A DNA stretch of 64,000 nt. Source: Actinokineospora bangkokensis. GTDB lineage: Bacteria; Actinomycetota; Actinomycetes; Mycobacteriales; Pseudonocardiaceae. The position numbers and the translations under genes were made by a program. The DNA lies in NCBI RefSeq assembly GCF_001940455.1, contig NZ_MKQR01000016.1:31125-95124 (forward strand). The letters are read 5' to 3'. The notes under the pieces are model-generated. The model worked only from the letters and a program-made list of their open reading frames with translations. It made no database searches and was not told the origin of the DNA. Within the stretch, counting starts at the first letter, position 1; each line of letters opens with the position of its first letter. This document shows positions 42,415 through 64,000 of the stretch, piece after piece.

Positions 42415-43047
42415 TCAGATCATCCCTTCGCGCATGGCGAAGGCGACCGCGTGCGTGCGGTTGCGCAGCTGGAACCGGGTCACCACGTCGTGCACGGTGT
42501 TCTTGATGGTCCGCTCGGAGTAGCACAGCTCGCGGGCGATCTCGCGCACCTCCATGCCCTGCGCCACCATCCGCAGCACCGCGGCCTCGCGGTCGGAGAG
42601 CCCGGTGAAGCGCAGGCCCTTGGGCGCGAGCACCTGGTTCTGCAACCGGTTGACCTGCCCGAGGAGCCTGCCGAGCAGCCGGGGCGAGAGCACCCCGCCC
42701 ATCGCCGCGGCCTGGCGCACCGCCTCGACCAGCCGCTCCGGGGACGCCTCGGCGCGCAGGACCAGCCCGCACACGCCCACCTCGATCGCCGCCAGCAGCG
42801 CGCCGTCGTCGACCGCGGAGAGCACCAGCACCACCTGGCGCAGGCCGCGGCCGCGCAGCTCGCGCACCAGGCGCAGCGCGGCGTCGTCGACCACGTCGCT
42901 GACCACCACGCACACCGCCGCCGGGTCCACGTCCTCGCGCGGCACCGGCAGCAGCGCCACCTCGGGCCTGCCGCGCAGCTGCGAGGCGACCCCGGTCTCC
43001 AGGATCGGGTCGGTTGCGGTGACGTGCACTGCGGTCCTCGCTTGCAT
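42415..43047 (-). CDS. LuxR/NarL-type response regulator with atypical receiver
   Basis: 210 aa. The C-terminal LuxR HTH is complete (GLSDREAAVLRMVAQGMEVREIARELCYSERTIKNTVHDVVTRFQLRNRTHAVAFAMREGMI). The receiver-like N-domain keeps the fold (VVLVLSAVDDGALLAAIEVGVCGLVLRAEASPERLVEAVRQAA). The phosphoacceptor strand is VCVVVSDVVDDA and the acidic pocket at the start is reduced (HVTATDP), so phosphorylation may not be used. No kinase gene is nearby. It sits beside the CIS locus and may belong to its control, or to the DUF917 operon with which it is nearly contiguous. Confidence 0.8.
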   Translation of the reverse strand: MQARTAVHVTATDPILETGVASQLRGRPEVALLPVPREDVDPAAVCVVVSDVVDDAALRLVRELRGRGLRQVVLVLSAVDDGALLAAIEVGVCGLVLRAEASPERLVEAVRQAAAMGGVLSPRLLGRLLGQVNRLQNQVLAPKGLRFTGLSDREAAVLRMVAQGMEVREIARELCYSERTIKNTVHDVVTRFQLRNRTHAVAFAMREGMI

Positions 43048-49141: not shown

Positions 49142-49689
49142 GCGATGACCTCCAGGCTGTGCAGGACGTGCACCGGCTTGGCGGCGCGGATGACCGCCTC
49201 CAGCGCGCCCTCGGACACCGCGCCGGGGTGGCTGGGGCGCACCTGCACGCGCACCCAGTGCTCGACGTCGGTGGGCGGGTCCGGCCGCGGCCGGGTCGAG
49301 ACCGAGGTCCCGCCGCTCTCGGTGATGGCGACCTCGCCGTCGACCACCACCGCCAGGTGCCTGCGCAGCCCGGCCATGGTGCCGCGCATGCGGAACAGGT
49401 CGACCGCCTCGGACACCACCGCCCGCTGCGCCCGCAGCGGCCACTGCTCGTCGAGCAGGACGCCGAACCAGCCCGCCAGCCAGCGGACGAACCCCGGCGG
49501 GGCCAGCAGCGGGTCGACGTAGGCGCCGATGCAGTCGATCGGGTTGATCAGGCTGGCCAGCACGTCGTCGAAGGCCGCGGTGAACCGCTGGGCGAAGCGG
49601 TCCTCGGCGAACACGGCGGGCAGGTGGTCGATGAGCGGGTACGGCGAGGGCAGCGGGGCGGGCTCCGGCCGGGGCGCGAGCGCGGTCAC
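49138..49689 (-). CDS. CIS baseplate protein, phage tail protein I-like
   Basis: 183 aa. PYPLIDHLPAVFAEDRFAQRFTAAFDDVLASLINPIDCIGAYVDPLLAPPGFVRWLAGWFGVLLDEQWPLRAQRAVVSEAVDLFRMRGTMAGLRRHLAVVV is the typical tail-protein-I/gp7-like N-terminal pattern found in eCIS baseplates (Afp12 position). It is shorter than many eCIS homologues, which carry large C-terminal extensions. GTG 49689 and the stop at 49138 both overlap neighbours by 4 bp. It should sit in the baseplate wedge beside the baseplate-J protein. Confidence 0.83.
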   Translation of the reverse strand: MTALAPRPEPAPLPSPYPLIDHLPAVFAEDRFAQRFTAAFDDVLASLINPIDCIGAYVDPLLAPPGFVRWLAGWFGVLLDEQWPLRAQRAVVSEAVDLFRMRGTMAGLRRHLAVVVDGEVAITESGGTSVSTRPRPDPPTDVEHWVRVQVRPSHPGAVSEGALEAVIRAAKPVHVLHSLEVIA

Positions 49690-51638
49690 GACCGCTCCAC
49701 CCGCACCTGGTGGTCGAAGGAGAACGCCAGCCCGCCCGGGCCCACCGGCAGCCGGTCGACCTCGGCGCCGCGCTCGCCGGTGACCGGGTTCGCCCCGAAG
49801 ATCCGCAGGTCCTCGACCACGTCCACGCCGCGCACGGACTGGAGCAGGGCGAACACCTCGCCGTGGCCGACCCGCCTGCCGAAGGGCCAGCCGGTGCCGT
49901 CCTCGCCGCCGGTGAGCGGGTTGAGGTAGGCGTAGAGGGCGCCCAGAGCGCGGGCGCGGACCTCCTCGGGGTCGAGCCGGGTGCGGGCGACGAGCCGGGC
50001 GACGACGGTGACGCCGCGGTAGCGGGGCGGTTCGACGAGCACCCGGGTGCCGACCAGGCGGACGTCGTCGAGGCGCTCGGCGATGCGCTCCAGGGTGCCC
50101 GCGGCGGGCACCAGGTCGGCGAACGGGATGCGGTGGTCGCGCTGGGCGGCGGCGGGCACGACCAGCACCTTGACCGCCCCGTGCGCCACGTCGTCCTCGC
50201 CCGCGGTGAGGCAGTGGATCCTGGCGACCTCGGGGGCGGCCTCGCGGGAGATGGCCTCGTAGTCCTCCGCGGTGACCGCGCGGCTGCGGGTGCGCAGCAC
50301 GATCGGGCCGCGCGCCTTGGCCTCGGCCAGGGTCTCCCCGTCCACCCCGCCGTGCGCGGGCTGGAGGTTGGTCACCCCCGCCACGAACGGGATGGACGAC
50401 TTGAGCGTGTCCACCGCGTGCCGGGCGACGTTGCCGAGCACGCCGCCGCCGCTGTAGTAGCGGCGCATCCGCAGCGGGGCGCCCGGCGGCGGCACCGCCC
50501 CGTACTGGCGCAGCGCCCGGTCCTCCAGCCGGACCGCCGGGCCCAGCTCGACCTCGCCCGCCACGCCGTCGAGGACGAAGTGCCGGTCGCCCGCCTCGCT
50601 GCCCGCGAAGTCGGCCACCCGCTGCCAGGTCTGCCACCCGTCGTCGGTGCCGACCTCCAGCACGGCCTCGTGCGCGCCCGCGAGCACCGGGGTGGCGGCG
50701 AGCCGGAACCGCTGCCCCGGCACGCCCTCGGACTCGCCCAGCTCCTCGAACTCGACGATCCGCGCGTGCACGGCGGTGGTGGTGGCGCCGACGGTGCCCG
50801 CGACGAGCCTGCGCACCCGGGGCGAGGCGCTGTAGGGCGGCTGGCCGGGCAGCGGCTCGACCACCCGCACCCGCAGCCACCCCGCGCGCTGCTCGTCGAT
50901 GACGCTGGCCTCGTGGCCCGCGGGCAGGTGCACCACGGTGCGCCCCGGCCGGTTGAACCCGCCGGTCTCGTCGGTGGTGACCGCGCAGTCCGACCAGCCC
51001 TCCCCCGTCCAGGCCTCCCACACCAGCGGCGGGTGCTTGGGGTTGACGCCGACGCCCTCGGTCTCGCCGTCGAAGTCCAGCCGCACCGCGCACGCGGGCG
51101 CCGGGTCGGCCAGGCCGATGAGCAGCGCGTCGTCGACCTGCGGCGGCTCGCCGAAGGCGGAGAACGGCTCGCCCAGCTCGAAGGCGGTGGTCTGGTCCTC
51201 GCTGCTGACCCCGGAGCCGACGACCCGGCGCACGGCGACGACCTCGGTGGGCAGCACGGGCAGGTCGGCCAGGGTGGAGAACACCACCGACTCGTCGCCC
51301 TCGGTGCGGGTGGTGGCCACCTTCGTGCCGCCGCGGATGACCAGCGGGGCGCGGGCGGGGGTGGACAGCCAGAACGTCACCGGCACCCGCGCCGGGGTGG
51401 GCGGCAGCATGCGCACCCCCAGCAGCTCCAGGAACTTGACGTAGAGCCGGTCGGGGACGCGGTTGAGCCGGTAGCACAGCTGCTCGGCCATGAACGCGAA
51501 CACCTCGACGAGGGTGACCCCGGGGTCGGAGACGTTGTGGTCGGTCCACTCCGGGCAGCGGCGCTGGATGTAGCGCTTGGCCTCGTCGACGAACTCCTGG
51601 AACCGCCGGTCGTCGAGCTCGGGGGCGGGCAGCACCAT
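49686..51638 (-). CDS. CIS baseplate J-like wedge protein
   Basis: 650 aa. It opens LDDRRFQEFVDEAKRYIQRRCPEWTDHNVSDPGVTLVEVFAFMAEQLCYRLNRVPDRLYVKFLELLG, the classic start of gp6/baseplate-J proteins of contractile injection systems (Afp11). The later AVTAEDYEAISREAAPEVARIHCL block is the conserved J domain, and the C-terminus LDPEEVRARALGALYAYLNPLTGGEDGTGWPFGRRV is also standard. ATG 51638 shares one base with the gp25 stop (TGATG). It forms the wedge ring that triggers sheath contraction. Confidence 0.9.
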   Translation of the reverse strand: MVLPAPELDDRRFQEFVDEAKRYIQRRCPEWTDHNVSDPGVTLVEVFAFMAEQLCYRLNRVPDRLYVKFLELLGVRMLPPTPARVPVTFWLSTPARAPLVIRGGTKVATTRTEGDESVVFSTLADLPVLPTEVVAVRRVVGSGVSSEDQTTAFELGEPFSAFGEPPQVDDALLIGLADPAPACAVRLDFDGETEGVGVNPKHPPLVWEAWTGEGWSDCAVTTDETGGFNRPGRTVVHLPAGHEASVIDEQRAGWLRVRVVEPLPGQPPYSASPRVRRLVAGTVGATTTAVHARIVEFEELGESEGVPGQRFRLAATPVLAGAHEAVLEVGTDDGWQTWQRVADFAGSEAGDRHFVLDGVAGEVELGPAVRLEDRALRQYGAVPPPGAPLRMRRYYSGGGVLGNVARHAVDTLKSSIPFVAGVTNLQPAHGGVDGETLAEAKARGPIVLRTRSRAVTAEDYEAISREAAPEVARIHCLTAGEDDVAHGAVKVLVVPAAAQRDHRIPFADLVPAAGTLERIAERLDDVRLVGTRVLVEPPRYRGVTVVARLVARTRLDPEEVRARALGALYAYLNPLTGGEDGTGWPFGRRVGHGEVFALLQSVRGVDVVEDLRIFGANPVTGERGAEVDRLPVGPGGLAFSFDHQVRVERS

Positions 51639-52042
51639 CAGTCGCTCCCTTCGTCGGGGATGGTGTAGAAGGGGTGGACCAGGTTGCGCGGGTCGTTCTC
51701 GCCCTTGACCACGTAGGCGATGTCGATGTGCAGCAGGTGGTCCTGGTCGGGTGAGGGGTAGACGGTGACGGAGCGGACCTCGGTGCGCGGTTCCCACAGG
51801 GTCAGCGCGTCGCGCACCTCCTGCTCGATGCGCGCGAACACCACCGCCGAGGCGCTCTCGTAGACGAAGTCGCGCAGCCGGGACCCGAACCGCGGCCGGA
51901 ACGGCCGCTCCCCCGGGTAGGTCGACAGCACGAGGGTCATGGCCTGCTCCAGCTTGCGGGCGCCGCTGACCGCGGCGATGGTGCCGTTGGCGGTGACGCC
52001 CAGCGGGAACGCCCAGCCGCGGCCGACGAAGTCGTGCTCCAC
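51638..52042 (-). CDS. CIS baseplate gp25-like protein
   Basis: 134 aa of the GPW/gp25 family: GRGWAFPLGVTANGTIAAVSGARKLEQAMTLVLSTYPGERPFRPRFGSRLRDFVYESASAVVFARIEQEVRDALTLWEPRTEVRSVTV. The E-x-R pattern of gp25 (here GERPFRPRFG) that contacts the first sheath ring is present. GTG 52042 is preceded by AGGAGGT, the strongest ribosome-binding site in the operon. It is the sheath-initiation subunit (Afp9 position). A 55-bp gap separates it from the spike gene. Confidence 0.92.
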   Translation of the reverse strand: MEHDFVGRGWAFPLGVTANGTIAAVSGARKLEQAMTLVLSTYPGERPFRPRFGSRLRDFVYESASAVVFARIEQEVRDALTLWEPRTEVRSVTVYPSPDQDHLLHIDIAYVVKGENDPRNLVHPFYTIPDEGSD

Positions 52043-52097: not shown

Positions 52098-54482
52098 CTA
52101 CAGCGGGATGGGGATGCCGTTGACCAGCGGCACGCCGAGGATGTTGACCGCGGGTGCTTCCAGGGTGATCGCGGTCGCGGCGCGGATGAGCAGGTTCGCG
52201 CCGCCGTCGACCATCATCGTCCCGGTGGGCCCGGCGGCGATGTTGATGAACCCGTTGAGCGCGCTGATGTTGATGTTCGGCAGCGGCACGGTGGTGACCC
52301 CGAGCACGGGCGCGGCGCTGATGTTCACCCCGCAGTTGACCTGGTCGACGGTGACGCCGACCTCGCCGCGCTGCGAGCCCAGCCGCACCGCCGAGGCCAG
52401 CGGCGGCACCCCCAGCTCGACCCCCGCCGCCTCGGTGCCGCCCCCGGCGTCGACCCCCACGTCGATGCCGGTCTCGGCGGTGACCTGCTCCAGCGGCGCG
52501 GCGACCTCGCTGGCCGTCGGCGGTTGCAGCGGGGCGGGGATGTCGTAGAACACCAGGGAGTTGCCGGTGTTGGACACGATGCCGCGGTGGTGGATCTCGC
52601 TGACCATGCCCGGGGCGAGCGCCGCCCCGGAGGCGACCTCCACGCCCTCGTTGAGCGCGCTGGTGGCCACCTGCGACCCGACCGCGCCGCCGACGATGCC
52701 GCCCAGCGGCCCGGCGACGGCACCGCCGAGGGCGGCCCCGCCCAGCTGCCCGGCCAGCGCGGCGCCCCCGGAGGCCAGGCCGAGCAGACCGCCCGCGGCG
52801 ATCGGGCCGGAGGTCGCGACGCTCCACCCGGTGTGGTCGTTCATCATCGCGCCGATGACGTAGGGCCTGCGCGGGTCGCCGAACTCGAAGGCCACCAGCA
52901 CCTCGTCGCCCACCTCGGGCATGAACATCGCACCGCCGCGCGGGCCGGAGCAGAACTGGACGTTGGGCGCCCAGTCGGTGTCGAAGTCCGGGGCCAGCCA
53001 CGGCAGGGTGACCTTGACCCGCCCCTTGGCCAGCGGGTCCGCCAGGTCGCTGACCACCCCGCACACCACGCCGTCGAGCACCGAGCGCGGGCCAGCCGAG
53101 CGGGTGCCGCCCTTGGTGAGGCCGGTGAACGTGCGGTCCTGCCTGCCGTGGACGTTGAACACCGTGCGGTAGCCGTGCTCGCTGTCGTCGAAGACGTGCC
53201 GGGCGCGCGAGACCCGCCAAGTGCCCGCGAACGGCGACGGCACGCCCACCACGGACAGCTCGGTGCCGGGCTGGATCGCGGGGTCGCCCTTGGCGGTGCC
53301 CTCGGCCTCGGCGACGGTGCCGCCGACGGTGGACCCGAGCGCGCCCGCGGTGAGCGGGCCGGTGGTGGCCATGTCGACCGCGGCGGCGACGGGGTGGTCG
53401 ACCAGGACCCGGGCGGTGGGGCTCGGCGGCGGGCCGAGGTACCCCACCGGGGAGCCCAGCAGCCCGCCCGCGACGTCGCTGAGCCCGCCGGTGGCCTCCG
53501 ACAGCGCCCGGCCCGCCTCGTCGCCCGCGAGGTCCAGACCGCGCCGCACACCACCGACGTCGAGTGACGTGGCGGCGTCCACGGCAGCGCTCAGCCCCCC
53601 GCTGAGCCCGGACAGCGCGCCGGGGGCGAACTGCCCGCCGAGCCCGGCGGCGCTGGGGTAGGGCCCCGAGGGCGTGCTGTTGTTCTGGGCGAAGGCCTGC
53701 CGCGCCATCGGGTCCCACACCCGCACCTCGACGTCCGGGGTGAGGTTGCCCGCGCTGATCCGCGGCCGGAACGACAGCAGCGCCTCCGGGAAGCTCACCC
53801 GGGCGCTCCTGGTCGACGACAGCACCGAGTTGGCCGCGCTGCGCACCATGCCCTCCAGGCCCCCGCCCGCCGACGACGCGGTGTTGAGCAGCGGGCGGAA
53901 GTGGAACTTGGCGTCGGTGACCTCCACCTTGTAGCCGATCTCCAGCGCCCGCGCGGTCAGGAACTCCCAGTCGGTCTGGTTGACCTGCGGCAGGTAGGCG
54001 TGGGTGGTGCTGGTGGGCACGACGGTGCCGATGGCCAGCCCCACCTCGGCGGCGAGCTGGCGGGCCACGTCGGCGTCGGTGACGTTGAGGAAGCTGCGGC
54101 TGCGCTTGGCCCGCTGCAACCGGTGCGCCGCGGTGTACCCGCGCACCACCGTCTTCACCGTCAGCCCGGCGATCAGCCCCTCGATCGCGGTGACCTCCCC
54201 GACGATCAGCGTGGCCGACGGGCCGGGCACCCCGGTGGTGCCGTCGGCCACCCCGGAGCTGACCGCCACGTCGGTGCCGATGCGGATGCCCGCCCTGGGC
54301 AGGGTGTCCCCGTCGACGTCGAGGAAGGTCAGCTCGAACATGCCGGGCAGGTTCACGTCGTTGTCCACCACCACCCGCAGCAGCCTGCTGTCCAGGGTGG
54401 GCGGCAGCGGCGTCCCGTCGAGGAACACCGTGGGCCGCACCGACGGTTCGGCGTTGGCGATCGGGTTGTCCGCGGAGATCAC
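52098..54482 (-). CDS. CIS spike protein, VgrG/gpD-gpV-like
   Basis: 794 aa. It has a gpD/VgrG-type hub (TVVRGYTAAHRLQRAKRSRSFLNVTDADVARQLAAEVGL ... WEFLTARALEIGYKVEV), a linker, and the OB-fold/gpV domain (VVSDLADPLAKGRVKVTLPWLAPDFDTDWAPNVQFCSGPRGGAMFMPEVGDEVLVAFEFGDPRRPYVIGAMMN). The C-terminal beta-helix needle (TVDQVNCGVNISAAPVLGVTTVPLPNINISALNGFINIAAGPTGTMMVDGG) follows. Between the OB-fold and the needle lies a Gly/Ala-rich apolar run (ALAGQLGGAALGGAVAGPLG, about 570-600) like a glycine zipper. GTG 54482 overlaps the LysM stop. It tips the tube and pierces the target. Confidence 0.88.
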   Translation of the reverse strand: MISADNPIANAEPSVRPTVFLDGTPLPPTLDSRLLRVVVDNDVNLPGMFELTFLDVDGDTLPRAGIRIGTDVAVSSGVADGTTGVPGPSATLIVGEVTAIEGLIAGLTVKTVVRGYTAAHRLQRAKRSRSFLNVTDADVARQLAAEVGLAIGTVVPTSTTHAYLPQVNQTDWEFLTARALEIGYKVEVTDAKFHFRPLLNTASSAGGGLEGMVRSAANSVLSSTRSARVSFPEALLSFRPRISAGNLTPDVEVRVWDPMARQAFAQNNSTPSGPYPSAAGLGGQFAPGALSGLSGGLSAAVDAATSLDVGGVRRGLDLAGDEAGRALSEATGGLSDVAGGLLGSPVGYLGPPPSPTARVLVDHPVAAAVDMATTGPLTAGALGSTVGGTVAEAEGTAKGDPAIQPGTELSVVGVPSPFAGTWRVSRARHVFDDSEHGYRTVFNVHGRQDRTFTGLTKGGTRSAGPRSVLDGVVCGVVSDLADPLAKGRVKVTLPWLAPDFDTDWAPNVQFCSGPRGGAMFMPEVGDEVLVAFEFGDPRRPYVIGAMMNDHTGWSVATSGPIAAGGLLGLASGGAALAGQLGGAALGGAVAGPLGGIVGGAVGSQVATSALNEGVEVASGAALAPGMVSEIHHRGIVSNTGNSLVFYDIPAPLQPPTASEVAAPLEQVTAETGIDVGVDAGGGTEAAGVELGVPPLASAVRLGSQRGEVGVTVDQVNCGVNISAAPVLGVTTVPLPNINISALNGFINIAAGPTGTMMVDGGANLLIRAATAITLEAPAVNILGVPLVNGIPIPL

Positions 54483-55396
54483 GTCGGCACCTCCTGGCCG
54501 AGCTCGGTGGGGGCGGGCAGGTGCAGCACGCGGCCGGGCCGCACGCGCAGCGGGTCGTCGATCCCGTTGGCCTCGGCCACCGCCCGCCACGCGGCGGGGG
54601 TGCCGTAGGCCTGCGTGGCCACCCGCACCACGTCCTCGCCCTGGGTCAGCACGTGCTTGCCGCGACCGGGGATGCCCCCGGAGGACGGGTTGGTGCCGGG
54701 CAGCTCGGCCTGGTGCACCTGCAACGTCATGTTGACCTTGGCCATCACCGGGATGCCGGTCCAGTCGAAGCGCTGGTAGTCCACCGAGACGGCGGTGAGC
54801 TGGACCTTGGTGCCGTTGCCCAGCGGCCCGCCCACGCCCCACATGAACAGCAGCACCGGCAGCTGGTAGGACTTGCTCGACGTGCTGCCGGGGCTGGGCA
54901 CGAACGTGGGCGGCTCGTCGACGGCGGTGATGCCGTTGCGGCCCGCGCTGAACCGGTTGAACTGCCCGGTGACGAGGTCGCTGACCTGGCGGCCGGCGTC
55001 GCGGACGGTGTCCATGGCCCGGCCGGGGTTGCGCAGCGCGTTCTGCACCTCGTGCAGCGCCCGCCCCACGCGGTTGGCCAGCCCGATCGTGGGCCGCGGC
55101 TGGCACCAGTCGAGCAGCTGGTCGACCGCGGCCTGGGTCACCACGGCGCCGGTGAGCCGGGCGCCGTTGAGGGTGATGGTGACCGGGCTGGTCTCCTTGG
55201 CCGACATCGACAGCGAGTCGCCCACGGTGGTGCCGCTGCCCTGGTTCTTCGCCGTGCGCGAGACCTGCACCTGCTCGGGGTTGAAGCTGAACTGCACCGG
55301 CACCCCGATGCCCTCGGGGATGAGCATGGCCTTGGCGTTGCCGTTGAGCAGCTGGCCCGCGCGCAGCAGCTCGCCGGTGAACCGGGAGAAGTCCAT
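54479..55396 (-). CDS. CIS tube-baseplate connector with LysM
   Basis: 305 aa. The N-terminal CIS-tube domain (KAMLIPEGIGVPVQFSFNPEQVQVSRTAKNQGSGTTVGDSLSMSAKETSPVTITLNGARLTG ... QLPVLLFMWGVGGPLGNGTKVQLTAVSVDYQRFD) resembles Afp7/gp53. The C-terminal LysM reads HVLTQGEDVVRVATQAYGTPAAWRAVAEANGIDDPLRVRPGRVLHLPAP. The LysM probably acts as an assembly joint, as in T4 gp53, not for wall binding. ATG 55396 overlaps the stop of the gp19-like gene (TGATG). Confidence 0.87.
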   Translation of the reverse strand: MDFSRFTGELLRAGQLLNGNAKAMLIPEGIGVPVQFSFNPEQVQVSRTAKNQGSGTTVGDSLSMSAKETSPVTITLNGARLTGAVVTQAAVDQLLDWCQPRPTIGLANRVGRALHEVQNALRNPGRAMDTVRDAGRQVSDLVTGQFNRFSAGRNGITAVDEPPTFVPSPGSTSSKSYQLPVLLFMWGVGGPLGNGTKVQLTAVSVDYQRFDWTGIPVMAKVNMTLQVHQAELPGTNPSSGGIPGRGKHVLTQGEDVVRVATQAYGTPAAWRAVAEANGIDDPLRVRPGRVLHLPAPTELGQEVPT

Positions 55397-55869
55397 CACA
55401 GGAACCCCTCGTGCACCAGCTCCAGCCGCTCGATGGCGACCCGGCTCTCCTTGGCGCTGAGCTGCGGGCCGGTCCACCCGGAGGGGAACGGGTTGCGCAG
55501 CGTCCACGAGCACACCTCGGCCCACCGCGCGTCGAGCAGGGTGATGGTGGCCGTGGTGCCGCCGGTGACGATGCTGAGCAGCTCCGGCATGACCCCGGGC
55601 TGGCTCCAGGGGGAGAACCGCTCGGCCAGCCACGACCGCAGCACCGGCGAGGACGTCGCGTCCACCGCCCGCTCCAGCTTGACCACCTCGTAGTCCACGT
55701 CGGCGAACAGGATGCGCTTGTGGCTGTAGTCGCCGGGGTCGTAGATGCGCTCGACCTTGGCCTTGATGTCCAGGCCCTTGCACGAGGACCAGGCGCCGAG
55801 GTCGAGCCCGTCGATCTGCACGTGGAACCGCATGGCCAGGCCGTGCGCGCCGGTGCCGGGTGGGGTCAC
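55396..55869 (-). CDS. CIS gp19-like tube-initiator protein
   Basis: 157 aa, tail-tube fold: MRFHVQIDGLDLGAWSSCKGLDIKAKVERIYDPGDYSHKRILFADVDYEVVKLERAVDATSSPVLRSWLAERF ... ATITLLDARWAEVCSWTLRNPFPSGWTGPQLSAKESRVAIERLELVHEGFL. GTG 55869 is chosen because GGAGGAG lies 6 nt upstream; the ATG two codons earlier sits right against it. It has the same length as the next gene, with which it is clearly paralogous. By order it corresponds to the Afp5-type subunits that start the inner tube on the spike. Confidence 0.85.
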   Translation of the reverse strand: MTPPGTGAHGLAMRFHVQIDGLDLGAWSSCKGLDIKAKVERIYDPGDYSHKRILFADVDYEVVKLERAVDATSSPVLRSWLAERFSPWSQPGVMPELLSIVTGGTTATITLLDARWAEVCSWTLRNPFPSGWTGPQLSAKESRVAIERLELVHEGFL

Positions 55870-55883
55870 TGCCATCTCCTCCG

Positions 55884-56357
55884 CTACGGGCCGTACTGCG
55901 ATCCGGGGGCCAGGAACCCGGAGTAGACGACCTCCAGGGTCTCCACGGCCACCTTGGACGCGGCGGCGTCGAACTCGCTGATCTGCCAGGCGATCGGGAA
56001 CATCTCGCGCAGCGTCCAGGTGAGCACCTGCTCGCCGGAGGAGGTGAGCATGGCGATCGCCCCCTCCTCCGGGGTGCCCCCGGAGGCCTTGACCTCCTCC
56101 AGCCACGCCTTCACCGCCGCGGTGGCGGTGCGGTCGGCGGCCCGGCTCAGCTTGAGCTTGTCGAACTTGGGCACCCCGGCGTACTTGGTGTACTGGTCGG
56201 AGTCGCCGACCCAGTGCTCGGCCAGGTCCCAGCGCACCGACAGGCCGGACACCTTGGACCAGGCGCCCAGGTCGCGCGACCCGGCCGACACCACGAACCG
56301 GTGCGCCATGGCCAGGTCCAGCGGCGCGGCCTGCGGACGGGGCAGGGGTGGGCTCAT
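55884..56357 (-). CDS. CIS gp19-like tube-initiator protein
   Basis: 157 aa, second tail-tube-fold paralogue: MAHRFVVSAGSRDLGAWSKVSGLSVRWDLAEHWVGDSDQYTKYAGVPKFDKLKLSRAADRTATAAVKAWLEEV ... AIAMLTSSGEQVLTWTLREMFPIAWQISEFDAAASKVAVETLEVVYSGFL. ATG 56357 has GGAGGAA upstream. It is 14 bp ahead of its paralogue, and the pair probably forms two adaptor rings between spike and tube. Tandem 17-bp repeats lie in the 60-bp gap before it. Confidence 0.85.
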   Translation of the reverse strand: MSPPLPRPQAAPLDLAMAHRFVVSAGSRDLGAWSKVSGLSVRWDLAEHWVGDSDQYTKYAGVPKFDKLKLSRAADRTATAAVKAWLEEVKASGGTPEEGAIAMLTSSGEQVLTWTLREMFPIAWQISEFDAAASKVAVETLEVVYSGFLAPGSQYGP

Positions 56358-56377: not shown

Positions 56378-56428
56378 GCTCGGTCGTCCCCAGTGCTCAG
56401 TCATCCCCGGTAACCGGTCATCCCCAGT
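56378..56428 (-). repeat. Three 17-bp tandem repeats across a stop codon
   Basis: On the minus strand the units are ACTGGGGATGACCGGTT, ACCGGGGATGACTGAGC and ACTGGGGACGACCGAGC. The TGA stop of the 1489-aa gene lies in the first unit (GGGGATGA). Because 17 is not a multiple of three, copy changes would shift the end of the reading frame. Confidence 0.7.
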
Positions 56429-59400
56429 CAGACAGCGACCCGGACCGCTCGCGCTCGACGAGCAGGTCGAACCGCAACCGGCACAGCAGCTCCTGGTAGA
56501 GCCGGTTCCCCAGCTCCTCCACCGACCCGGAGTCGTCGAGGTCCACCCACCGCCGCGGCGGGCGCTCCCCCACGACCCGCACGACCTCGTCCACCGACAG
56601 CGGCTCGGGCCGGTCCTCGGGCTCGTCGTCGTCCTCGTCCTCCACAGCGGAGGAGCTGTCCTCCTCCTGCTCCCTGGCCAGTTGCAGCAGCAGCTCCACC
56701 CCGTCCGGGGCCTCGGACCGCTCCCGCACGACGATGCTGCCGGGCTGCGGCTCTGCTGCCCTGGGGGCGAGCTGCACCTCGGGGTGGCGCACCGGGTTGG
56801 CGGGCGGCGCCCACGGCAGCTCAGCGGCCGGTCCGTCCCCGGCGAACCACTGCTCGACGGCGACGGCCTCGGCCTCCAGCACCCGCCCCTCGGGGGTGTC
56901 GGGAGCAGGGAGCGCGCCACCGAGCAGGCGCTGCTGCACGGCGTGGGTGAGTTCGTGGGCCAGCACGGGAGCGGCCATCGCGCCGTCGAGGACGCCCAGG
57001 GAGTCGGGCAGGTGGACCACCCCGGCCGCGGTGAACCCCCGCGCGTCGAACCGCTGCGCCAACCCGGTTGCCACCGCGCCCCGCCGGACCTGCACGTCGG
57101 ACACGTCTACGCCGAGCACACGGCGGAGCGGGGCGGTGATCGTGGTGGGGGCGGTGGAGGTGATGGTGGTGGTGGTGGCGTTCATGGGCCGGGCTGGCAC
57201 TGCGGGGGCTTGTCGTCCCGGCTCTTGCTGAACGGCTTGGAGCGTTGGAGTGCGTCCTGATTGGACCGGAAGCCGCGCGACCCCTGCCGGTGGCGGTTCG
57301 ATGCTGGTAGTGGCGTCCGGTGCGATTGACGCGGCAGGAACGCTGTCGGCGCCCCGGGTCGTCCCCAGCGGATCGGGCTGTGCTTCAGGGGGCGGCTCAA
57401 ATTCAGGCTCGACCGGTTCACCAGGCACGAAGACCGCCCCCAGCGGCTCACCCTCCGCTCGCCCGCTAGGCACTTCACGCTCGACCCGGACGTCCGGCTC
57501 CTGGAGCGAAGTCGACTCCCGGCGGGCGGGCGCATCCACCAACTCCGGTGCCACGCCCTCGGCCACCCGCGGCAGATTTGCCTGCGCGCCCTGCGTCACG
57601 GGAGCCTCGGCAACCAGCCCACCCGACGCACGCTCAACGGCGGTGACCGCCTCTCGACGGCTCGGCGCAGCGGGTTCGGCGTGCACGAGCAGGGCATCCG
57701 CGCGGACACGCACCGCGGAGGGCTCGACAGCCGTTACCGTCTCCACGGCATCGTCGCGATCCCGTACCCCGGAGACCTCGCCAACTGCCCCCGGTGAAGC
57801 CTGGGCAACCGTGCGGACAGGCGCCGAAACGATGTCCGCGGCCGGCCTGTCATCCGAGCCAGCCTGCGTCGCCTGATCAGCAACGTGTACCGAAGCCTCA
57901 GCCACGACAACGGGCGCACTCGGCACCTCGCCCGGTGCCACGTCCTCCACCGACGCGGCCTCACTGGGCGCCGACTGCTCCGGCCGCTCGATCAGCGCAG
58001 GCCGCTCGGCTTCCTCCGCAGCAGCGGGCGAAACCACCACCGACGCGGTCGACTCGACGGGGTCCCGCACCAGGACAGCCTCAACCCGAGGTCCCTCCAC
58101 AGCCTCATCCGCTGCCGCCCCAGGCTCAGCAGCCGCACTCTCTCCGACAACAGCCACACCCCTGGGTGCGTCCACCCCTGGTGCAACTGCCACGTCTCCG
58201 GGCGAGTCCACCCCTAGGAAAGTCGTGGTCTCCCCAATCGCCGCCACCTCCGGCACAGCTGCGGTCTCCTCCTCAGCGGCCATCCCGGGTCTATCGACGA
58301 CACGCCCAACCAAGGACACGTCAGGACCCACAGCGGCATCCTGAACCGGCACCACACCAGTCACGGCCGGGACGTCCTCGCCCGGCACTACTTCACGGGC
58401 AGCCGAAAGCCCCACGGTCGACGGCGGCTCAACCTCAGCCGTCACAACCTCCGCCGACGCCACCCCAGGCGAAGCCGTGGCACCATCAGGACCCGGCACT
58501 CCGGGATCGGCCGTCACACCCTCCACCGCAGGCGGAGTCGCAGGACCCCGCAGCGACGGCGCCGCAAGCCCGTCCGGCACAGGTTCAGACGAAACCGTGG
58601 AACGCGGCAGCACCGGCGTCCCGATCCCGGTCTCGACCCGTTCCACCGCAGGAGAAGCCGCAGCCCCCTGCGGCAGCGGCGGCCGAGGCGCGTTCTCCAG
58701 CGGTTCCACCGACGCCACGTCAGGCCCAGTCGCCACCCCCGGAGGCGTCGGCGCACCAATCCCGGCAGCCGTTCTTTCCACAGATGCCGTCGCAGCCGGG
58801 GGTGCCACATCCCCGGGTGGTACCGTCCCGCGCCCAGAAGCCACGCCCTCCATCGGAGCGGGTTCAATCTGCGGCCCGACAAGCTCGACAGGTTGGCCCA
58901 CAGGCGATACCGCCTGAGCCGCGACGACCACATCATCCGTGGCCACCACCCTGAACTCAGCCGCACCTTCATGGGACGACACCCGAAGCGCAGCCGCAGG
59001 ACTCTCCGAGGGTGCAGCTCCACGCGCAGCAGGCATGTCCTCGTCCGACACCACGGAGGTCGCCACCCGAGCGTCCCTCGCCAACTCGGTGGAGCGCGTC
59101 GCTGGCTCAGACTCGACCGCCGCGTCCACGGACACCGAAGATTCAGCTACCCGGCCATCGTCCGGCGCACCGCTGGACGGCGCCGGAGCGATCACCCCAA
59201 CCGCACCGCGCCCAGCCGCATTCGCTTCGTCCTGCGGTGACTCAGGCCTCTGCGCCTCAGCGACGTTCACCGCTCCGGTCTGCGCCACATCCTCGGGCTC
59301 GACGACCCGCGACACCTCGGGCCGCGTGACCGCCTCTGCCACCGGTACAGGGGCCTCAGCAGCAGAAGGCACCCCGACTTCCCCTGCCGCATCATCCTCG

Positions 59401-60887
59401 GCCAAGTCGGGCTCAGCAGCACTCGGCTCACCGAACTCAGCCGCCTGCTCACGCTCCCCCGGCTCATCGCCCGGCACCGGTTCGACCGTCCGCGCACCCG
59501 TGATCGGCCGATCCACCAACACCCCACCGCTGGCCTCGACATCCTCCACCCGTGTCGACGCGGCCACCGCGCCCTCGCCGGACGCCTCAGCCGCAGGCAG
59601 CACACTGTCTCCCGCCGACACAGCCCCATCCGCCAGGACAGCCCTAGGCGTCACAACCTCACCCGACGACACGTCAGCCTCACCCACGGAAGCAGCCGCA
59701 CGCGCTACGACCGCTGGCACAGCCTCAGGCGCAGCACCCCGGCTCTCTGGCACTACCGCGGGCACGACAGCCTGATCGACCAGGGAAGGCACGGCGTCGT
59801 TGGCCGGCGCGGGCCCGAAAACCGGGTCCTCCCCTGCCGGAGCAGGCTCGGCGATCCCAGCTCCGGCCGCAGGCGCCCGGTCCACCAAAACGGGGGCAGG
59901 CACGGCAGCAGAACCGGGAACAGTCCCATCCGCCGAGCCAGGCTCAGGCACCTGCGCCACAGCCTCGCTCACCCGAGCGGCTTCGGGCACCCCCATCGCA
60001 CCCACCTGCGCCGAAGCCGAAACCCCTTCTACCACCGCAGCCGCCTGGGGCCTCTCGTCCTGCTCCCCCTCAGCAACCCCGGCGTCACCCGTCGGAGCCA
60101 CCTCAGCCGCACCGCTGGGCGGCGGCGCGTCGCTCACCCGAGCAGGTTCCGCACTGTCCTGTCGAGATGGTTCAGCCGGGGTGGCGCGCAGTCCACGCCT
60201 GCGGCTCTCCGCCAGGCTCGCCCGCCGCGGGACCGGTGGTGCCTGCGGCACGTCGGCCACGGGCGCCGGCGCGGCCGGCGGCACCGGCGGCACCGGCGGC
60301 GCGGGGGCCGGGTCCGGTCGGGTGCCCGGTTCCCGCATCGAGTCCATCATGCGGTCCTTCTCCAGGTAGGCCTGGTGCAGGAACGCGGGCGCCCGCCACG
60401 GGACGGCGGCGACCCGGGGTTCGGCCACGAACTCCTCGGTCGCCTCGGTCAGCCCCGCGAGCCGCGCCGGGACGGCCGCCCGCGTCGTCGGGAGGCGGCG
60501 GGGGCGGTGCGGCAGCTCGACGGGCTCGGGCGCGGCGGCCTCGACCGGGGGTTCGGGCAGGGTCGGCACGACCTGCACGAGACCGCCTACCCGGCCGGGC
60601 GACCCGGCGGTCACCAGCTGCGGCGCCCCGCCGAGGTCCCGGCCCACCGCCGTGATCGCCGTGTCCAGGTCGACGACCGGGTGCAGCGGCGGCGTGGTGC
60701 GCAGCGGCGGCAACCGGAGCCAGGCCGCGCGACGCCGACCCTCGCCCCCCTCCCCCGCCGCGGGTCCGGCGTGGACAGTTGACCCGTCCTGGTCGACGGT
60801 GTCCGCCCGCGGGCCGGGGGGAGCGGGCTCGGGCGGCGCGGCGGGCGCGGGTGGGGCGCTGCGGCGGCGGAAGGGCCAGCGGGGCAC
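56418..60887 (-). CDS. Giant DUF4157 (eCIS-core) protein with about 1000-residue disordered region
   Basis: 1489 aa. The first 240 residues mix Pro-rich linkers with a conserved patch (LRLPPLRTTPPLHPVVDLDTAITAVGRDLGGAPQL; VPWRAPAFLHQAYLEKDRMMDSMREPG). Residues about 240-1210 are low-complexity Ala/Val/Pro/Glu/Ser with no aromatic core. The DUF4157 domain follows: DVQVRRGAVATGLAQRFDARGFTAAGVVHLPDS ... VLAHELTHAVQQRL, with an HExxH zinc-protease motif near 1309. The C-terminus is acidic (SSSAVEDEDDDEPEDRPEP). The disordered part has visibly more A/T at third codon positions than its neighbours. GTG 60887 has GGAGG in the previous gene's end. DUF4157 marks eCIS loci and is often fused to cargo; here it may be scaffold, protease or cargo loader. 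Confidence 0.82.
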   Translation of the reverse strand: MPRWPFRRRSAPPAPAAPPEPAPPGPRADTVDQDGSTVHAGPAAGEGGEGRRRAAWLRLPPLRTTPPLHPVVDLDTAITAVGRDLGGAPQLVTAGSPGRVGGLVQVVPTLPEPPVEAAAPEPVELPHRPRRLPTTRAAVPARLAGLTEATEEFVAEPRVAAVPWRAPAFLHQAYLEKDRMMDSMREPGTRPDPAPAPPVPPVPPAAPAPVADVPQAPPVPRRASLAESRRRGLRATPAEPSRQDSAEPARVSDAPPPSGAAEVAPTGDAGVAEGEQDERPQAAAVVEGVSASAQVGAMGVPEAARVSEAVAQVPEPGSADGTVPGSAAVPAPVLVDRAPAAGAGIAEPAPAGEDPVFGPAPANDAVPSLVDQAVVPAVVPESRGAAPEAVPAVVARAAASVGEADVSSGEVVTPRAVLADGAVSAGDSVLPAAEASGEGAVAASTRVEDVEASGGVLVDRPITGARTVEPVPGDEPGEREQAAEFGEPSAAEPDLAEDDAAGEVGVPSAAEAPVPVAEAVTRPEVSRVVEPEDVAQTGAVNVAEAQRPESPQDEANAAGRGAVGVIAPAPSSGAPDDGRVAESSVSVDAAVESEPATRSTELARDARVATSVVSDEDMPAARGAAPSESPAAALRVSSHEGAAEFRVVATDDVVVAAQAVSPVGQPVELVGPQIEPAPMEGVASGRGTVPPGDVAPPAATASVERTAAGIGAPTPPGVATGPDVASVEPLENAPRPPLPQGAAASPAVERVETGIGTPVLPRSTVSSEPVPDGLAAPSLRGPATPPAVEGVTADPGVPGPDGATASPGVASAEVVTAEVEPPSTVGLSAAREVVPGEDVPAVTGVVPVQDAAVGPDVSLVGRVVDRPGMAAEEETAAVPEVAAIGETTTFLGVDSPGDVAVAPGVDAPRGVAVVGESAAAEPGAAADEAVEGPRVEAVLVRDPVESTASVVVSPAAAEEAERPALIERPEQSAPSEAASVEDVAPGEVPSAPVVVAEASVHVADQATQAGSDDRPAADIVSAPVRTVAQASPGAVGEVSGVRDRDDAVETVTAVEPSAVRVRADALLVHAEPAAPSRREAVTAVERASGGLVAEAPVTQGAQANLPRVAEGVAPELVDAPARRESTSLQEPDVRVEREVPSGRAEGEPLGAVFVPGEPVEPEFEPPPEAQPDPLGTTRGADSVPAASIAPDATTSIEPPPAGVARLPVQSGRTPTLQAVQQEPGRQAPAVPARPMNATTTTITSTAPTTITAPLRRVLGVDVSDVQVRRGAVATGLAQRFDARGFTAAGVVHLPDSLGVLDGAMAAPVLAHELTHAVQQRLLGGALPAPDTPEGRVLEAEAVAVEQWFAGDGPAAELPWAPPANPVRHPEVQLAPRAAEPQPGSIVVRERSEAPDGVELLLQLAREQEEDSSSAVEDEDDDEPEDRPEPLSVDEVVRVVGERPPRRWVDLDDSGSVEELGNRLYQELLCRLRFDLLVERERSGSLSDWG

Positions 60888-61067: not shown

Positions 61068-61459
61068 GGGGTGCCCGCCACGTCCACCAGGAACTCGTGG
61101 CCGCAGCCGGGGCAGCTGACCTCGGCCTCGGTGTGGCCCTGCTGGTTGACCCGGCGGTAGAGGTCCTGGAGGAAGGCCAGGTCGGAGGCGAACAGGTGCT
61201 CGACGACGAACCGGTCCACCGAGGCCAGGGTGCCCAGCCGCACCAGGGTGCGCATGAGCAGGAAGATCGACAGGTAGGCGGCGTTCTGCCGGACCATGGG
61301 CTCGGAGTGCGCGGTGAGCTCATCCTTGGCCGTGGCCAGGCGCAGGACCCCGGCCCGGTGGACCCGGCCCTGCTCGTCGACGTAGCCGCGGGGCAGGGTG
61401 AAGGGGTACTCGGTGCGCAGCCCCGCGGTCGGCGCACCGGGCTCCGCCACGGCCGTCAC
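61064..61459 (-). CDS. CIS tail-assembly chaperone-like protein with zinc-binding tail
   Basis: 131 aa. RTEYPFTLPRGYVDEQGRVHRAGVLRLATAKDELTAHSEPMVRQNAAYLSIFLLMRTLVRLGTLASVDRFVVEHLFASDLAFLQDLYRRVNQ is the pattern of the phage tail-assembly (gp14/DUF-type) chaperones found after the tube gene. It ends with EVSCPGCGHEFLVDV, a single CxxC knuckle that may bind zinc in a dimer. Start and stop overlap both neighbours by 4 bp, so output is linked to the tube protein. Confidence 0.82.
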   Translation of the reverse strand: MTAVAEPGAPTAGLRTEYPFTLPRGYVDEQGRVHRAGVLRLATAKDELTAHSEPMVRQNAAYLSIFLLMRTLVRLGTLASVDRFVVEHLFASDLAFLQDLYRRVNQQGHTEAEVSCPGCGHEFLVDVAGTP

Positions 61460-61944
61460 GCCGGGCCGCCGCCGGACTTGAGGTCGATCTGCTCGCAGGT
61501 CAGGGTGACCGTGGCGATCACGGCCTCGCTGCCGCCCGCCTTGAGCCCGCCGATCTCCAGCTTCGACGGCCAGGCGTTGGTCAGCCGGTAGACCTGCTTG
61601 TTGACCCCGACGGTGTCCTGGAGCAGCAGCGAGCAGCCGCGCCGGGCGCTGGGCTGGCCCGCGAGCACCTCCTGGTGCCAGGTCCACAGCGCGTAGTCCT
61701 GGTCGACGCCGCGCTTGAGCACGACGGTGGCGGGCTTGGTCTTGCCGAACTGCTTGCTCATGGTGACGCCGAGGGTGCCGCTGCTCATGTACTCCGAGAC
61801 CTCCACCTCGGAGGTGATGCCGGTCATCTCGGAGAAGGTGATCTCGCCGCCGCCGAGGTCGAACTGCACGACGAAGCGGGCGGCGTTGACGAGGCTGTCG
61901 GTGTTGGTGCTGGCGTTGGACGTGCGGCCGAAGGGCGGGGTCAT
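61456..61944 (-). CDS. CIS inner tube protein (gp19/Hcp-like)
   Basis: 162 aa. NAARFVVQFDLGGGEITFSEMTGITSEVEVSEYMSSGTLGVTMSKQFGKTKPATVVLKRGVDQDYALWTWHQEVLAGQPSARRGCSLLLQDTVGVNKQVYRLTNAWPSKLEIGGLKAGGSEAVIATVTLTCEQIDL is a full tail-tube subunit, the main tube of the particle (Afp1 position, just after the sheath). ATG 61944 has GGAG upstream. The 48-bp gap after the sheath gene is free of clear hairpins. Confidence 0.92.
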   Translation of the reverse strand: MTPPFGRTSNASTNTDSLVNAARFVVQFDLGGGEITFSEMTGITSEVEVSEYMSSGTLGVTMSKQFGKTKPATVVLKRGVDQDYALWTWHQEVLAGQPSARRGCSLLLQDTVGVNKQVYRLTNAWPSKLEIGGLKAGGSEAVIATVTLTCEQIDLKSGGGPA

Positions 61945-61992: not shown

Positions 61993-63519
61993 TCACTCCT
62001 CCAGCGCGGCGCCCTGGGGCAGCTGGGAGATGCGGAAGACGACGAACTCGGCGGGCTTGACCGGCGCCACCCCGATCTCGATGATCAGGTTGCCCGCGTC
62101 CCGGCTCTCCGGCGGGTTGTTCTCGGCGTCGCACTTGACGAAGTAGGCCTCCGCCGCCGAGCGGCCGACGAGCGCGCCGCTGCGCCACACCCGCTGCAGG
62201 AACGCGCCGACGACGCGCTGCACGCTCTCCCACAGGTACTCGTCGTTGGGCTCGAACACCACCCAGTTCGTGCCGTTGAGGATGGACTCCTCGATGAAGT
62301 TGAACAGCCTGCGCACGTTGACGTAGCGCCACTCCGGGTCGCTGGAGAGGGTGCGCGCGCCCCACACCCGGATGCCCTGGCCGGGGAAGGCGCGCAGGCA
62401 GTTGACCCCGAGCGGGTTGAGCAGCTCCTGCTCCGAGCGGCTGATCACCGTCTGCAGGGCGACGACGCCGCGGATGACCTCGTTGGCGGGGGCCTTGTGC
62501 ACCCCGCGCGTCTCGTCGCTGCGCGCCCACACCCCGGCCAGGTGGCCGCTGGGCGGCAGGCTCACCCGGTTGCCGGTGATCGGGTCCATCGCCTGCACCC
62601 ACGGCCAGTACAGGGCGGCGTACTTGCTGTCGTAGCCCGCGAACTCGGTGCGCCAGTCGCGGACCTGCTGGGAGTTGAGCCCGGGCGGCGGGTCCAGGAT
62701 GGCGACCCGGTCCGACATCAGCTCGCAGTGGGCCATCAGCGCCTGCTGCACGGCCTTGACGCCCTCGGCGTCGAGCAGGCCGCGCTGGTAGGCCGACATC
62801 AGGTCGGGGACGGCGACCATGGTGATCTCGTCGATGGCCTCGAACCCGCCCAGGCCGGTGCGCTCCACCGGGTCCCCGACGTACTCGGCGGGGCTGAGCG
62901 AGCGGGGCGCGGGGGCGCTGCCCGCGAGCGCGGTGGTGGTGTCCTTGCGCGGGGCCAGGGCGGCGGACTTGGTGTCCTCCAGCTCGACGAGCTTGGACTG
63001 GCGGGCCAGGACGGTGGCGACGTTGGCGGGGCCGCGCTTGGTGGTGAGGTTGTCGAAGGACTCCTCGACCTTGCCGTCGCGCAGCACGTCGAGGCGGAAG
63101 GCGTCCTCGCCGGGCTGGCCCGCCTCGGCGACCACGACGCTGAGCTCACCGGGCCCGGCCGAGGGCAGGGCGCGCACGGCGAAGGCGGCGCGCTTGTCGT
63201 CGGCCGCGGCGGGGACGGTGGCGCGCAGGTCGCGGCGGCCGTCGCCCGCGGCCTCGGTGTCGGGCAGGCGCAGCACGTAGGCGGCGCCACCGCCGTTGAG
63301 GAAGAACCCGTAGACCGAGTGCGGCAGGTAGGCGCCCTCGGTGAACCCGCCGAACACCCGGGTGAAGTGGGTCCAGTTGGTGATCAGGGTCGGCTCGGAC
63401 ACCGGCCCCCTCTCGGCGAAGCCGACGAAACCCGCCACGGCGGTGCCGACGCCCTCGATGGGCCGGGAGCCGGACGACACCTCCTCGACGTAGACGCCGG
63501 GGGCGAGGTAGTTGGGCAT
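61993..63519 (-). CDS. CIS contractile sheath protein
   Basis: 508 aa. The N-terminus PNYLAPGVYVEEVSSGSRPIEGVGTAVAGFVGFAERGPVSEPTLITNWTHFTRVFGGFTEGAYLPHSVYGFFLNGGGAAYVLRL and the C-terminus (LIIEIGVAPVKPAEFVVFRISQ) are the two inter-subunit arms of a tail sheath. The central domain has LLDAEGVKAVQQALMAHCELMSDRVAILDPPPGLNSQQVRDWR and GVNCLRAFPGQGIRVWGARTLSSDPEWRYVNVRRLFNFIEESI. ATG 63519 fits the family start; the open frame to 63909 has no support. Only one sheath gene is seen, unlike the three of Afp/PVC. It is first in the operon. Confidence 0.95.
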   Translation of the reverse strand: MPNYLAPGVYVEEVSSGSRPIEGVGTAVAGFVGFAERGPVSEPTLITNWTHFTRVFGGFTEGAYLPHSVYGFFLNGGGAAYVLRLPDTEAAGDGRRDLRATVPAAADDKRAAFAVRALPSAGPGELSVVVAEAGQPGEDAFRLDVLRDGKVEESFDNLTTKRGPANVATVLARQSKLVELEDTKSAALAPRKDTTTALAGSAPAPRSLSPAEYVGDPVERTGLGGFEAIDEITMVAVPDLMSAYQRGLLDAEGVKAVQQALMAHCELMSDRVAILDPPPGLNSQQVRDWRTEFAGYDSKYAALYWPWVQAMDPITGNRVSLPPSGHLAGVWARSDETRGVHKAPANEVIRGVVALQTVISRSEQELLNPLGVNCLRAFPGQGIRVWGARTLSSDPEWRYVNVRRLFNFIEESILNGTNWVVFEPNDEYLWESVQRVVGAFLQRVWRSGALVGRSAAEAYFVKCDAENNPPESRDAGNLIIEIGVAPVKPAEFVVFRISQLPQGAALEE

Positions 63520-63706: not shown

Positions 63707-64000
63707 GTGCTGGCAGACGTCGACTCCTCCCTCCGGGCCTGGCTCACCGACGAGCTCGCGCCCGGCACCGAGATCGGGTTCGACCCGCCCGGGCTGCTCA
63801 CCGGCATCCCGCGCAGACCGCGGCGGGCGGGCATCGTGAACCTGTTCCTGCACGCGGTCACCGAGAACCTCGACGGGCTCCCGGCGGGCCGGGTGCGGGT
63901 GCGCGACACCGAGGGCCGGGTGACCGGCAGCCACGTGGCGCACCGCAGCTACCACCTGTCCTACCTGGTGACGGCGTGGGCGGCGGACACCACCGAGGAG
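63707..64000 (+). CDS. DUF4255 protein (CIS terminator/cap type), 5' part
   Basis: The gene runs off the right edge; 98 codons are visible. The start is GTG 63707 (LADVDSSLRAWLTDELAPGTEIGFDPPGLLTGIPRRPRRAGIVNLFLHAVTENLDG, then SYHLSYLVTAWAADTTEE). The opening helix plus 'INLFLY-like' strand and YYLxYLVTAW are hallmarks of DUF4255 (Pvc16_N), the protein that caps tube and sheath in extracellular CIS. It is divergent from the sheath, so the remaining CIS genes probably follow on the plus strand outside the window. Confidence 0.85.
   Translation, partial: MLADVDSSLRAWLTDELAPGTEIGFDPPGLLTGIPRRPRRAGIVNLFLHAVTENLDGLPAGRVRVRDTEGRVTGSHVAHRSYHLSYLVTAWAADTTEE

Follow-up and report, generated by a model that had tools for sequence, protein, structure and literature searches.

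What a protein made up largely of a thousand-residue low-complexity arm could do inside a contractile injection system (CIS) is the question raised by a gene in the window, by which we mean the whole 64,000-nucleotide stretch of Actinokineospora bangkokensis DNA analysed here. The initial annotation described the product as a DUF4157 protein with an arm attached, in an extracellular CIS (eCIS) context, and the CIS structural genes found around it (Table 1) confirm that context. On the minus strand these run in the order sheath, tube, chaperone-like gene, DUF6760, the gene in question, tube initiators, LysM-like gene, hub, gp25, Baseplate_J and Tail_P2_I. In P2-like phages, the tape measure gene lies between the tail assembly chaperones and the tube initiator or hub, and the genes for phage tape measure proteins and Afp14 follow the tail assembly chaperone and precede the tube initiator or hub. 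The window gene stands where these genes stand; it occupies the phage tape-measure position and is called the slot gene below. Among the roles proposed at the outset for the arm, a tape-measure-like or lumenal one gains support from this position. The scan of the cluster genes brought up no second candidate of tape-measure type, though two neighbours (720 and 361 aa) are without a Pfam match. The chaperone-like protein likewise has no Pfam match, and no match to phage records at E 0.01. A further CIS cluster of this genome, on contig 14, has a paralogue of 996 aa in its slot. The paralogue can be aligned with the window protein at DUF4157 (50% over 117 aa) and, weakly, in the N-terminal part (E 0.015).

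Table 1. The slot gene, its parts and the surrounding CIS genes, in window coordinates
Feature	Position	Strand	Remarks
Pvc16_N tail terminator gene	63707..64000, continuing beyond the window end (L006:9832-10458)	plus	profile match; faces the cluster
Sheath	61993..63519	minus	relative of PDB chain 8bky_A (S. coelicolor CIS)
Tube protein, Phage_T4_gp19	61456..61944	minus	Pfam match
Tail assembly chaperone-like protein, 131 aa	61064..61459	minus	PHROG 508, E 1.4e-4
DUF6760 gene, 58 aa	60891..61067	minus	E 3.3e-10; directly upstream of slot gene
Slot protein gene	56418..60887	minus	1489 aa: N-terminal motifs, low-complexity arm, DUF4157, C-terminal helix
N-terminal region, residues 1-235	60183..60887	minus	short conserved motifs
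Low-complexity arm, residues 236-1240	57168..60182	minus	GC3 0.69, no K/C/W/Y
DUF4157/eCIS_core, residues 1247-1320	56928..57149	minus	Pfam match; predicted fold possibly metallopeptidase-like
HELTH, residues 1311-1315	56943-56957	minus	HExxH zinc motif in DUF4157
Conserved C-terminal helix, residues 1453-1482	56442..56531	minus	family consensus RLYxxLxxRLRxELxxDRERxG; predicted
gp19-like tube initiator	55884..56357	minus	directly downstream of slot gene
Second tube initiator	55396..55869	minus	gp19-like
Afp7-like protein	54479..55396	minus	CIS_tube below cut-off; LysM-like C-terminus (by eye and weak PHROG matches)
Spike hub with Phage_base_V	52098..54482	minus	Pfam match
gp25 baseplate protein	51638..52042	minus	profile match
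Baseplate_J, Afp11-like	49686..51638	minus	Pfam match
Tail_P2_I, Afp12-like	49138..49689	minus	profile match

The arm is coding. Its reading frame holds 0 stops per 1000 codons (17, 50, 5, 5 and 7 in the remaining five frames), against a mean of 19.4 and a minimum of 8 in 500 order-1 Markov sequences, a result that rules out non-coding DNA. The plus strand at 56418-60887 is interrupted by stops. The start codon of the 1489-aa frame is GTG, with a GGAGG-like site upstream as judged by eye, and the MPRWPF start resembles the MRWPF start of relatives. A gene caller relying on codon usage alone called only the last 255 aa of the frame.

The HELTH zinc motif was correctly read as part of a C-terminal DUF4157, which scores 43.5 bits against a Pfam cut-off of 22 (E 3.7e-11); the HE and H of HExxH are invariant across 31 aligned relatives. 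Correct too was the long arm before it, rich in Ala (20%), Val (16%), Pro (13%) and Glu (10%), with 9% Gly, 3% Leu and no Cys, Trp, Lys or Tyr. The short conserved N-terminal patch proved to be a larger affair: conserved motifs are present (MPRWPFRRR, W.RLPPL, GRVGGL, LTEATEEFV..PR...RAP and RRASLAESRRRGL), and they extend over about 235 residues. The last 45 or so residues form a second conserved element that had been missed.

The lower GC bias of arm codons was borne out, GC3 being 0.69 in the arm and 0.91-0.96 in the rest of the gene. This is not an amino-acid effect, since Ala codons alone show the drop (60% end in G or C in the arm, 97% in the N-terminus and 77% in the C-terminus). Comparison of the two closest relatives, L062 and L063 (open frames of 1633 and 1692 aa), gives a dN/dS of 0.67 for the arm, 0.33 for DUF4157 and 0.21 for the last 46 aa, with identities of 63% in the arm, 93% in DUF4157 and 96% in the C-terminal motif. 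The suggestion of fast drift or relaxed selection in the arm is fair as far as relaxed constraint goes; it fails as a distinguishing mark, equally high values of dN/dS being found for the N-terminal motifs (0.66) and for the residues that follow DUF4157 (0.77). What sets the arm apart is divergence at both kinds of site, with dN at 0.249 against 0.076 in the N-terminal region and dS at 0.372 against 0.09-0.20 elsewhere, both read from an arm alignment that is itself unsure. The loss of complexity is modest, mean entropy in 45-residue windows being 3.16 bits in the arm, 3.37 in DUF4157 and 3.49-3.76 in eight neighbour proteins. Tandem Repeats Finder listed nothing within 57181-60182, which rules out a ruler built of tandem repeats. 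The best pattern in the window arm is E.VT, with 6 occurrences against 0.6 expected, a figure uncorrected for the many patterns tried.

From its composition, the arm is likely to be disordered. The mean TOP-IDP value is 0.249 in the arm and 0.083-0.120 in the eight neighbour proteins, and the share of FWYILMC residues is 5% against 19-24%. These two measures disagree with the charge-hydropathy test, which classes the arm as folded (+0.043, close to gp25 at +0.042) together with 88 of 92 slot-protein regions, only four of the 92 falling on the disordered side; it is because of this disagreement that disorder is graded no higher than likely. Ala/Val-rich chains push hydropathy up in this test. 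Two loci with odd frames, L196 and L214, were omitted from the charge-hydropathy, slot-length and charge counts. No folded domain outside DUF4157 was matched in the window protein by Pfam, PHROG or NCBIfam at the limits used; a folded domain running throughout the arm, named at the outset as a finding that would tell against the reading, did not appear among these matches. AlphaFold2 models of the C-terminal 264 residues predict DUF4157 with pLDDT 95-98, then a low-confidence linker, then the terminal helix (residues 1453-1482) with pLDDT of about 79-91; the N-terminal 240 residues average 61, with one confident helix at residues 168-185. Zinc peptidases rank first when the DUF4157 model is aligned by VIA, with low Z-scores (best 6.3), and Foldseek gave no match at E 0.001.

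Which parts of the protein matter was judged from its relatives. Within the genus, the comparison covers 13 loci, this genome's two and eleven of 15 genus stretches; the four excluded (L071, L072, L073 and L075) have a DUF4157 gene without the slot. Gene order is conserved in all 13, the open frames between DUF6760 and the tube initiator range from 730 to 1692 aa, and the low-complexity stretches, compared by eye, differ in place between the same short motifs. In L074 and L076, two of these loci, the slot protein lacks DUF4157 but retains both N-terminal patch and C-terminal motif. A wider set consists of the best 80 of 233 relatives found with the chaperone-like protein as bait. DUF6760 is present in 79 of these 80, and after removal of the one without it and of seven slots cut by a contig end, 72 closed slots remain. 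The C-terminal motif of about 40 aa occurs in 70 of the 72 (absent from L101 and L147); six of the 72 (L077, L078, L091, L104, L105 and L111) also served to train the profile. The N-terminal aromatic-basic patch was matched in 55 of these slots, and a W..LPP-type motif in 53, against 5% in shuffles. DUF4157 itself is found in 30 of the same 72, and 20 of the 42 slots without it have a DUF4157 in another gene of the fetched stretch. As DUF4157 is present in only 30 slots and the C-terminal motif in 70, the domain is an optional insert. What stays constant in the family is a long, variable, low-complexity chain together with the C-terminal helix, most members having N-terminal motifs as well, and the framing of a DUF4157 protein bearing an arm has to be reversed.

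A quick sheath tree, in which L082 has a very long branch, accounts for the distribution of slot DUF4157 with two changes, a number as low being reached in 0 of 500 shuffles; one of the two is L081, labelled as lacking a DUF4157 that it in fact holds (HELMH), and correcting the label by hand leaves a single change. All 98 slot proteins counted, six loci being counted twice, have open frames of at least 503 aa, and those bearing DUF4157 range from 676 to 1692 aa. Long slot-like chains recur across Actinobacteria and Chloroflexi. The AT-rich locus L217 also has a long chain, like the slot proteins by eye; the C-terminal profile did not report it at E 0.1. The DUF4157 protein of the initial annotation thus becomes a DUF4157-bearing member of a conserved, probably disordered family in the tape-measure slot, for which a mechanism is plausible.

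The Streptomyces CISs give this family its interest. According to PMC10066040 and PMC12237407, the S. coelicolor CIS lacks a typical tape measure gene, and PMC10286715 states the same for S. lividans; two of these three papers describe particles of uniform length, and those of S. coelicolor have a single length of 60 tube layers (PMC12237407). A haloarchaeal CIS reported without a tape measure has sheaths of heterogeneous length (PMC11566945), in agreement with a need for a ruler where particles are uniform. Four genomes match chain 8bky, deposited with PMC10066040, at 100% identity over a sheath fragment. In each of them a slot gene encoding the C-terminal motif lies after DUF6760 and before the tube initiator, with open frames of 1379, 1407, 1358 and 1301 aa. 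By gene order, the S. coelicolor member would be SCO4249. It shares the slot, the low-complexity chain and the C-terminal motif with the window protein, from which it differs in having no DUF4157 and, in three of the four genomes, about 20 copies of [VI]QR (21, 20 and 19; 3 in L196), the window protein being the opposite in both respects. The 1407-aa frame, that of L196, may include a wrong frame, and its motif counts are odd. The S. coelicolor models described in PMC12237407 comprise SCO4243-4248, 4252-4253 and 4260, with SCO4249-4251 not among them. The slot family is a conserved, unmodelled candidate for the tape measure reported missing from Streptomyces CISs. In the literature searched, the tag SCO4249 turned up in one paper, as the name of a phosphate regulator.

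The reading that we prefer, tentatively and as possible rather than probable, is that the slot protein is a lumenal, C-terminally anchored, mostly disordered tape measure or scaffold in a class of actinobacterial CISs. The C-terminal helix of about 30 residues, together with the DUF4157 fused before it in the window clade, would anchor the chain to the tube initiator or spike hub. Such an anchor is suggested by analogy, because a DUF4157 protein of S. lividans binds the tube initiator, Sle2 co-eluting with SlpT2 (PMC13277306). The helix may trimerise in the spike cavity as a known plug does. From the anchor the arm would extend through the lumen of the tube; the basic-aromatic N-terminal tag would lie at its distal end or serve in loading, and the chain would act during tube growth as a disordered tape measure or lumenal scaffold. 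The lumenal location, the disorder itself and the control of length are all putative. Known tape measures are helical. Those of phages differ in this from the window arm, which with 13% Pro, 9% Gly and 3% Leu is not helical by composition, and searches of Pfam, PHROG and PDB, among them searches with the C-terminal motif, matched it to none of the known tape measures or solved plug proteins. If the reading is right, helicity is no requirement for a ruler or lumen scaffold, and DUF4157 can belong to the particle core and not to cargo alone.

Several observations count against it. Slot lengths of 1301-1407 aa beside an identical sheath fragment speak against a strict ruler, which should give differences in particle length. 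Deletion of sco4256-4258 leaves wild-type-like assembly with about 85% of lumens (n 73) looking mostly empty (PMC10066040). Mass spectrometry of purified S. coelicolor particles names the unknowns SCO4242, SCO4256 and SCO4251 and not SCO4249 in the text of PMC10020575, supplementary lists aside. A fixed tape-measure slot is also at odds with the gene orders of L217, whose long protein comes after the tube initiator, between it and the hub, and of L215 and L216, where DUF6760 is followed by a gene that by eye resembles a second sheath.

An eCIS cargo or effector, unlikely but the most serious of the competing accounts, would be loaded into the lumen by DUF4157 and the N-terminal tag and ejected on contraction, the arm being a linker or an active part. 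DUF4157 is an effector marker found with linkers of more than 1000 aa (PMC8213781), and the window N-terminus fits by eye, without a score, the loading signal described in PMC11297309. The S. davawensis protein Tme, about 70% disordered and with a DUF4157, co-purifies with CIS baseplate proteins (PMC11126660). Tme is like the window protein in being long, largely disordered and linked to the tube initiator; it differs in that its DUF4157 is N-terminal, in having predicted transmembrane helices, and in ending with a nuclease domain, of which Pfam and NCBIfam show no trace in the window protein, eCIS_core being the only match. Pfam and NCBIfam show no toxin domain either, and the position of DUF4157 near the C-terminus reverses the published effector layout (PMC8213781). 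Members without DUF4157 persist at a fixed place inside the structural genes, whereas published effectors tend to lie toward the operon 3' end or up to ten genes off (PMC8213781, PMC11297309). Proteins with eCIS_core (PF13699) share the domain, HExxH and an eCIS locus with the window protein, and differ in its setting: the window domain lies toward the C-terminal end of a protein that occupies a structural slot, where 42 of the 72 relatives (from the best 80 of 233) lack it. The Sle1/Sle2 pair, a small DUF4157 protein and a coiled-coil partner upstream of the sheath, was not found in the window genome, whose two eCIS_core matches are both slot proteins, 1489 and 996 aa long, with genes located downstream of those for sheath and tube. 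The Tme-like locus L219 gave no match to DUF6760, the chaperone or the C-terminal helix, and the distant CIS L220 only a non-significant chaperone match (0.96).

Were the C-terminal helix (with DUF4157) all that matters, the protein would be an assembly adaptor or oversized spike plug, an assembly nucleus like Alg6 or Cis6 with the arm as filler of little function; we consider this rather improbable. Alg6 is a trimer with its C-terminal helix in the spike cavity and is required for assembly (PMC8894135), and Alg6/Afp6/Cis6 (PMC8894135, PMC8894136) have a baseplate gene neighbourhood and a C-terminal helix, predicted in the window protein, in common with it. The window has no gene fitting between the tube initiators, the LysM-like gene and the hub, the long protein of L217 lies where numbering places Cis6 genes, and few parts are as well conserved as the C-terminal motif (96% identity against 63% in the arm). 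The plug is, however, called small (PMC8894135), whereas the window protein has 1489 aa, and the 47-position C-terminal profile found chance-level matches only among solved chains up to E 10, with no plug chain listed. That every slot protein counted reaches at least 503 aa, and that [VI]QR or L[VI]H is enriched in many of them, argues against the arm as pure filler. Least credible is an arm that plays no part in the particle and consists of decaying or runaway low-complexity sequence, an account that would suit the arm dN/dS of 0.67, its raised dS and low GC3, and frames varying from 676 to 1692 aa among DUF4157-bearing relatives. Against it stand a frame open over 1000 codons, a dN/dS below 1, which means that some constraint remains, and similar long chains in Actinobacteria, Chloroflexi and the AT-rich L217.

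The enriched motifs were counted in 67 of the 72 closed slots (best 80 of 233 relatives), 27 with and 40 without DUF4157. Slot proteins without the domain average 5.75 copies of [VI]QR, with two or more in 35 of 40, against 0.48 and a maximum of two in those with it. L[VI]H shows the reverse, with at least two copies in 14 of 27 bearing DUF4157 and any copy in 3 of 40 lacking it; the window protein has zero [VI]QR and one L[VI]H. Separate, non-slot DUF4157 proteins have two or more [VI]QR in 17 of 22 rows, L083, L102 and L103 being excluded because their matches belong to slots. The two slot groups are separate lineages, so descent alone could explain the split. Charge per residue is -0.046 in DUF4157-bearing slot arms and -0.002 in the others, and tube net charge -1.7 and -0.1, respectively; arms and tubes of DUF4157-bearing loci are thus both slightly more acidic, and charge matching between arm and tube was discarded for want of complementarity.

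A bolder proposal, which we regard as distinctly unlikely, is that tube length in actinobacterial, Chloroflexi and perhaps cyanobacteria-like CISs is set by a widespread tape-measure family, unannotated and intrinsically disordered, with repeats of [VI]QR (one branch, shared with the separate DUF4157 proteins) or L[VI]H (the other branch) docking the chain in the lumen, and one lineage having DUF4157 fused into a ruler without QR repeats. If so, and if the S. coelicolor ratio of about 1379 aa per 60 rings held, the window protein would give about 65 rings (about 250 nm) and the contig 14 paralogue about 43 rings in the same cell. Of four matches in a viral collection, three resemble CIS clusters and one, L218, resembles noise.

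A second contractile injection system (CIS) cluster is carried by contig 14 of the A. bangkokensis genome (L003), and its components include a 996-aa paralogue of the slot protein, the product encoded at the tape-measure position between the DUF6760 and tube initiator genes. The low-complexity arm of this paralogue contains the short motif L[VI]H seven times, against 0.1 expected. Another motif, [VI]QR, is enriched at loci with separate DUF4157 genes (L114, L127, L132, L136 and others among the fetched relatives), in their slot proteins and separate DUF4157 proteins alike. On L217, an AT-rich contig from a viral collection, the gene after the tube initiator encodes a repeat-rich protein whose C-terminus, by eye, is similar to that of the slot family.

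Both A. bangkokensis clusters are adjoined by genes for LuxR-family regulators, and close to both are proteins with weak Ig-like matches. The zinc-ribbon gene at the end of the window CIS operon occupies a position that is a frequent site of fibre genes. Shortly past the window end (L006), two adjacent genes lie beside the tail terminator gene, and searches of Pfam and NCBIfam gave no match for either. Elsewhere in the window, a large RHS-repeat protein with a weakly WXG100-like N-terminus has an opposite-strand neighbour in which YD-repeat-like sequence was recognized by eye.

Features in and around the CIS clusters and on related contigs
Location	Strand	Feature
Window 17209-25197	-	2662-aa protein, YD-repeat-like
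Window 26800-31206	+	RHS-repeat protein
Window 42415-43029	-	LuxR-family (GerE) regulator
Window 43127-44413	-	Weak Ig-like (Cep192/HYDIN-type) match
Window 47546-48463	-	Zinc-ribbon and NADase-type glycan-binding (discoidin-like) domain
L003:388-17383		Second CIS cluster: sheath, tube genes, Pvc16_N, PAAR, slot paralogue
L003:12993-13619	+	LuxR-family (GerE) regulator
L003:17469-18848	+	Weak Ig-like (Cep192/HYDIN-type) match
L006:10690-13951		Gene pair, 720 and 361 aa
L217:4175-7384		1070-aa repeat-rich protein
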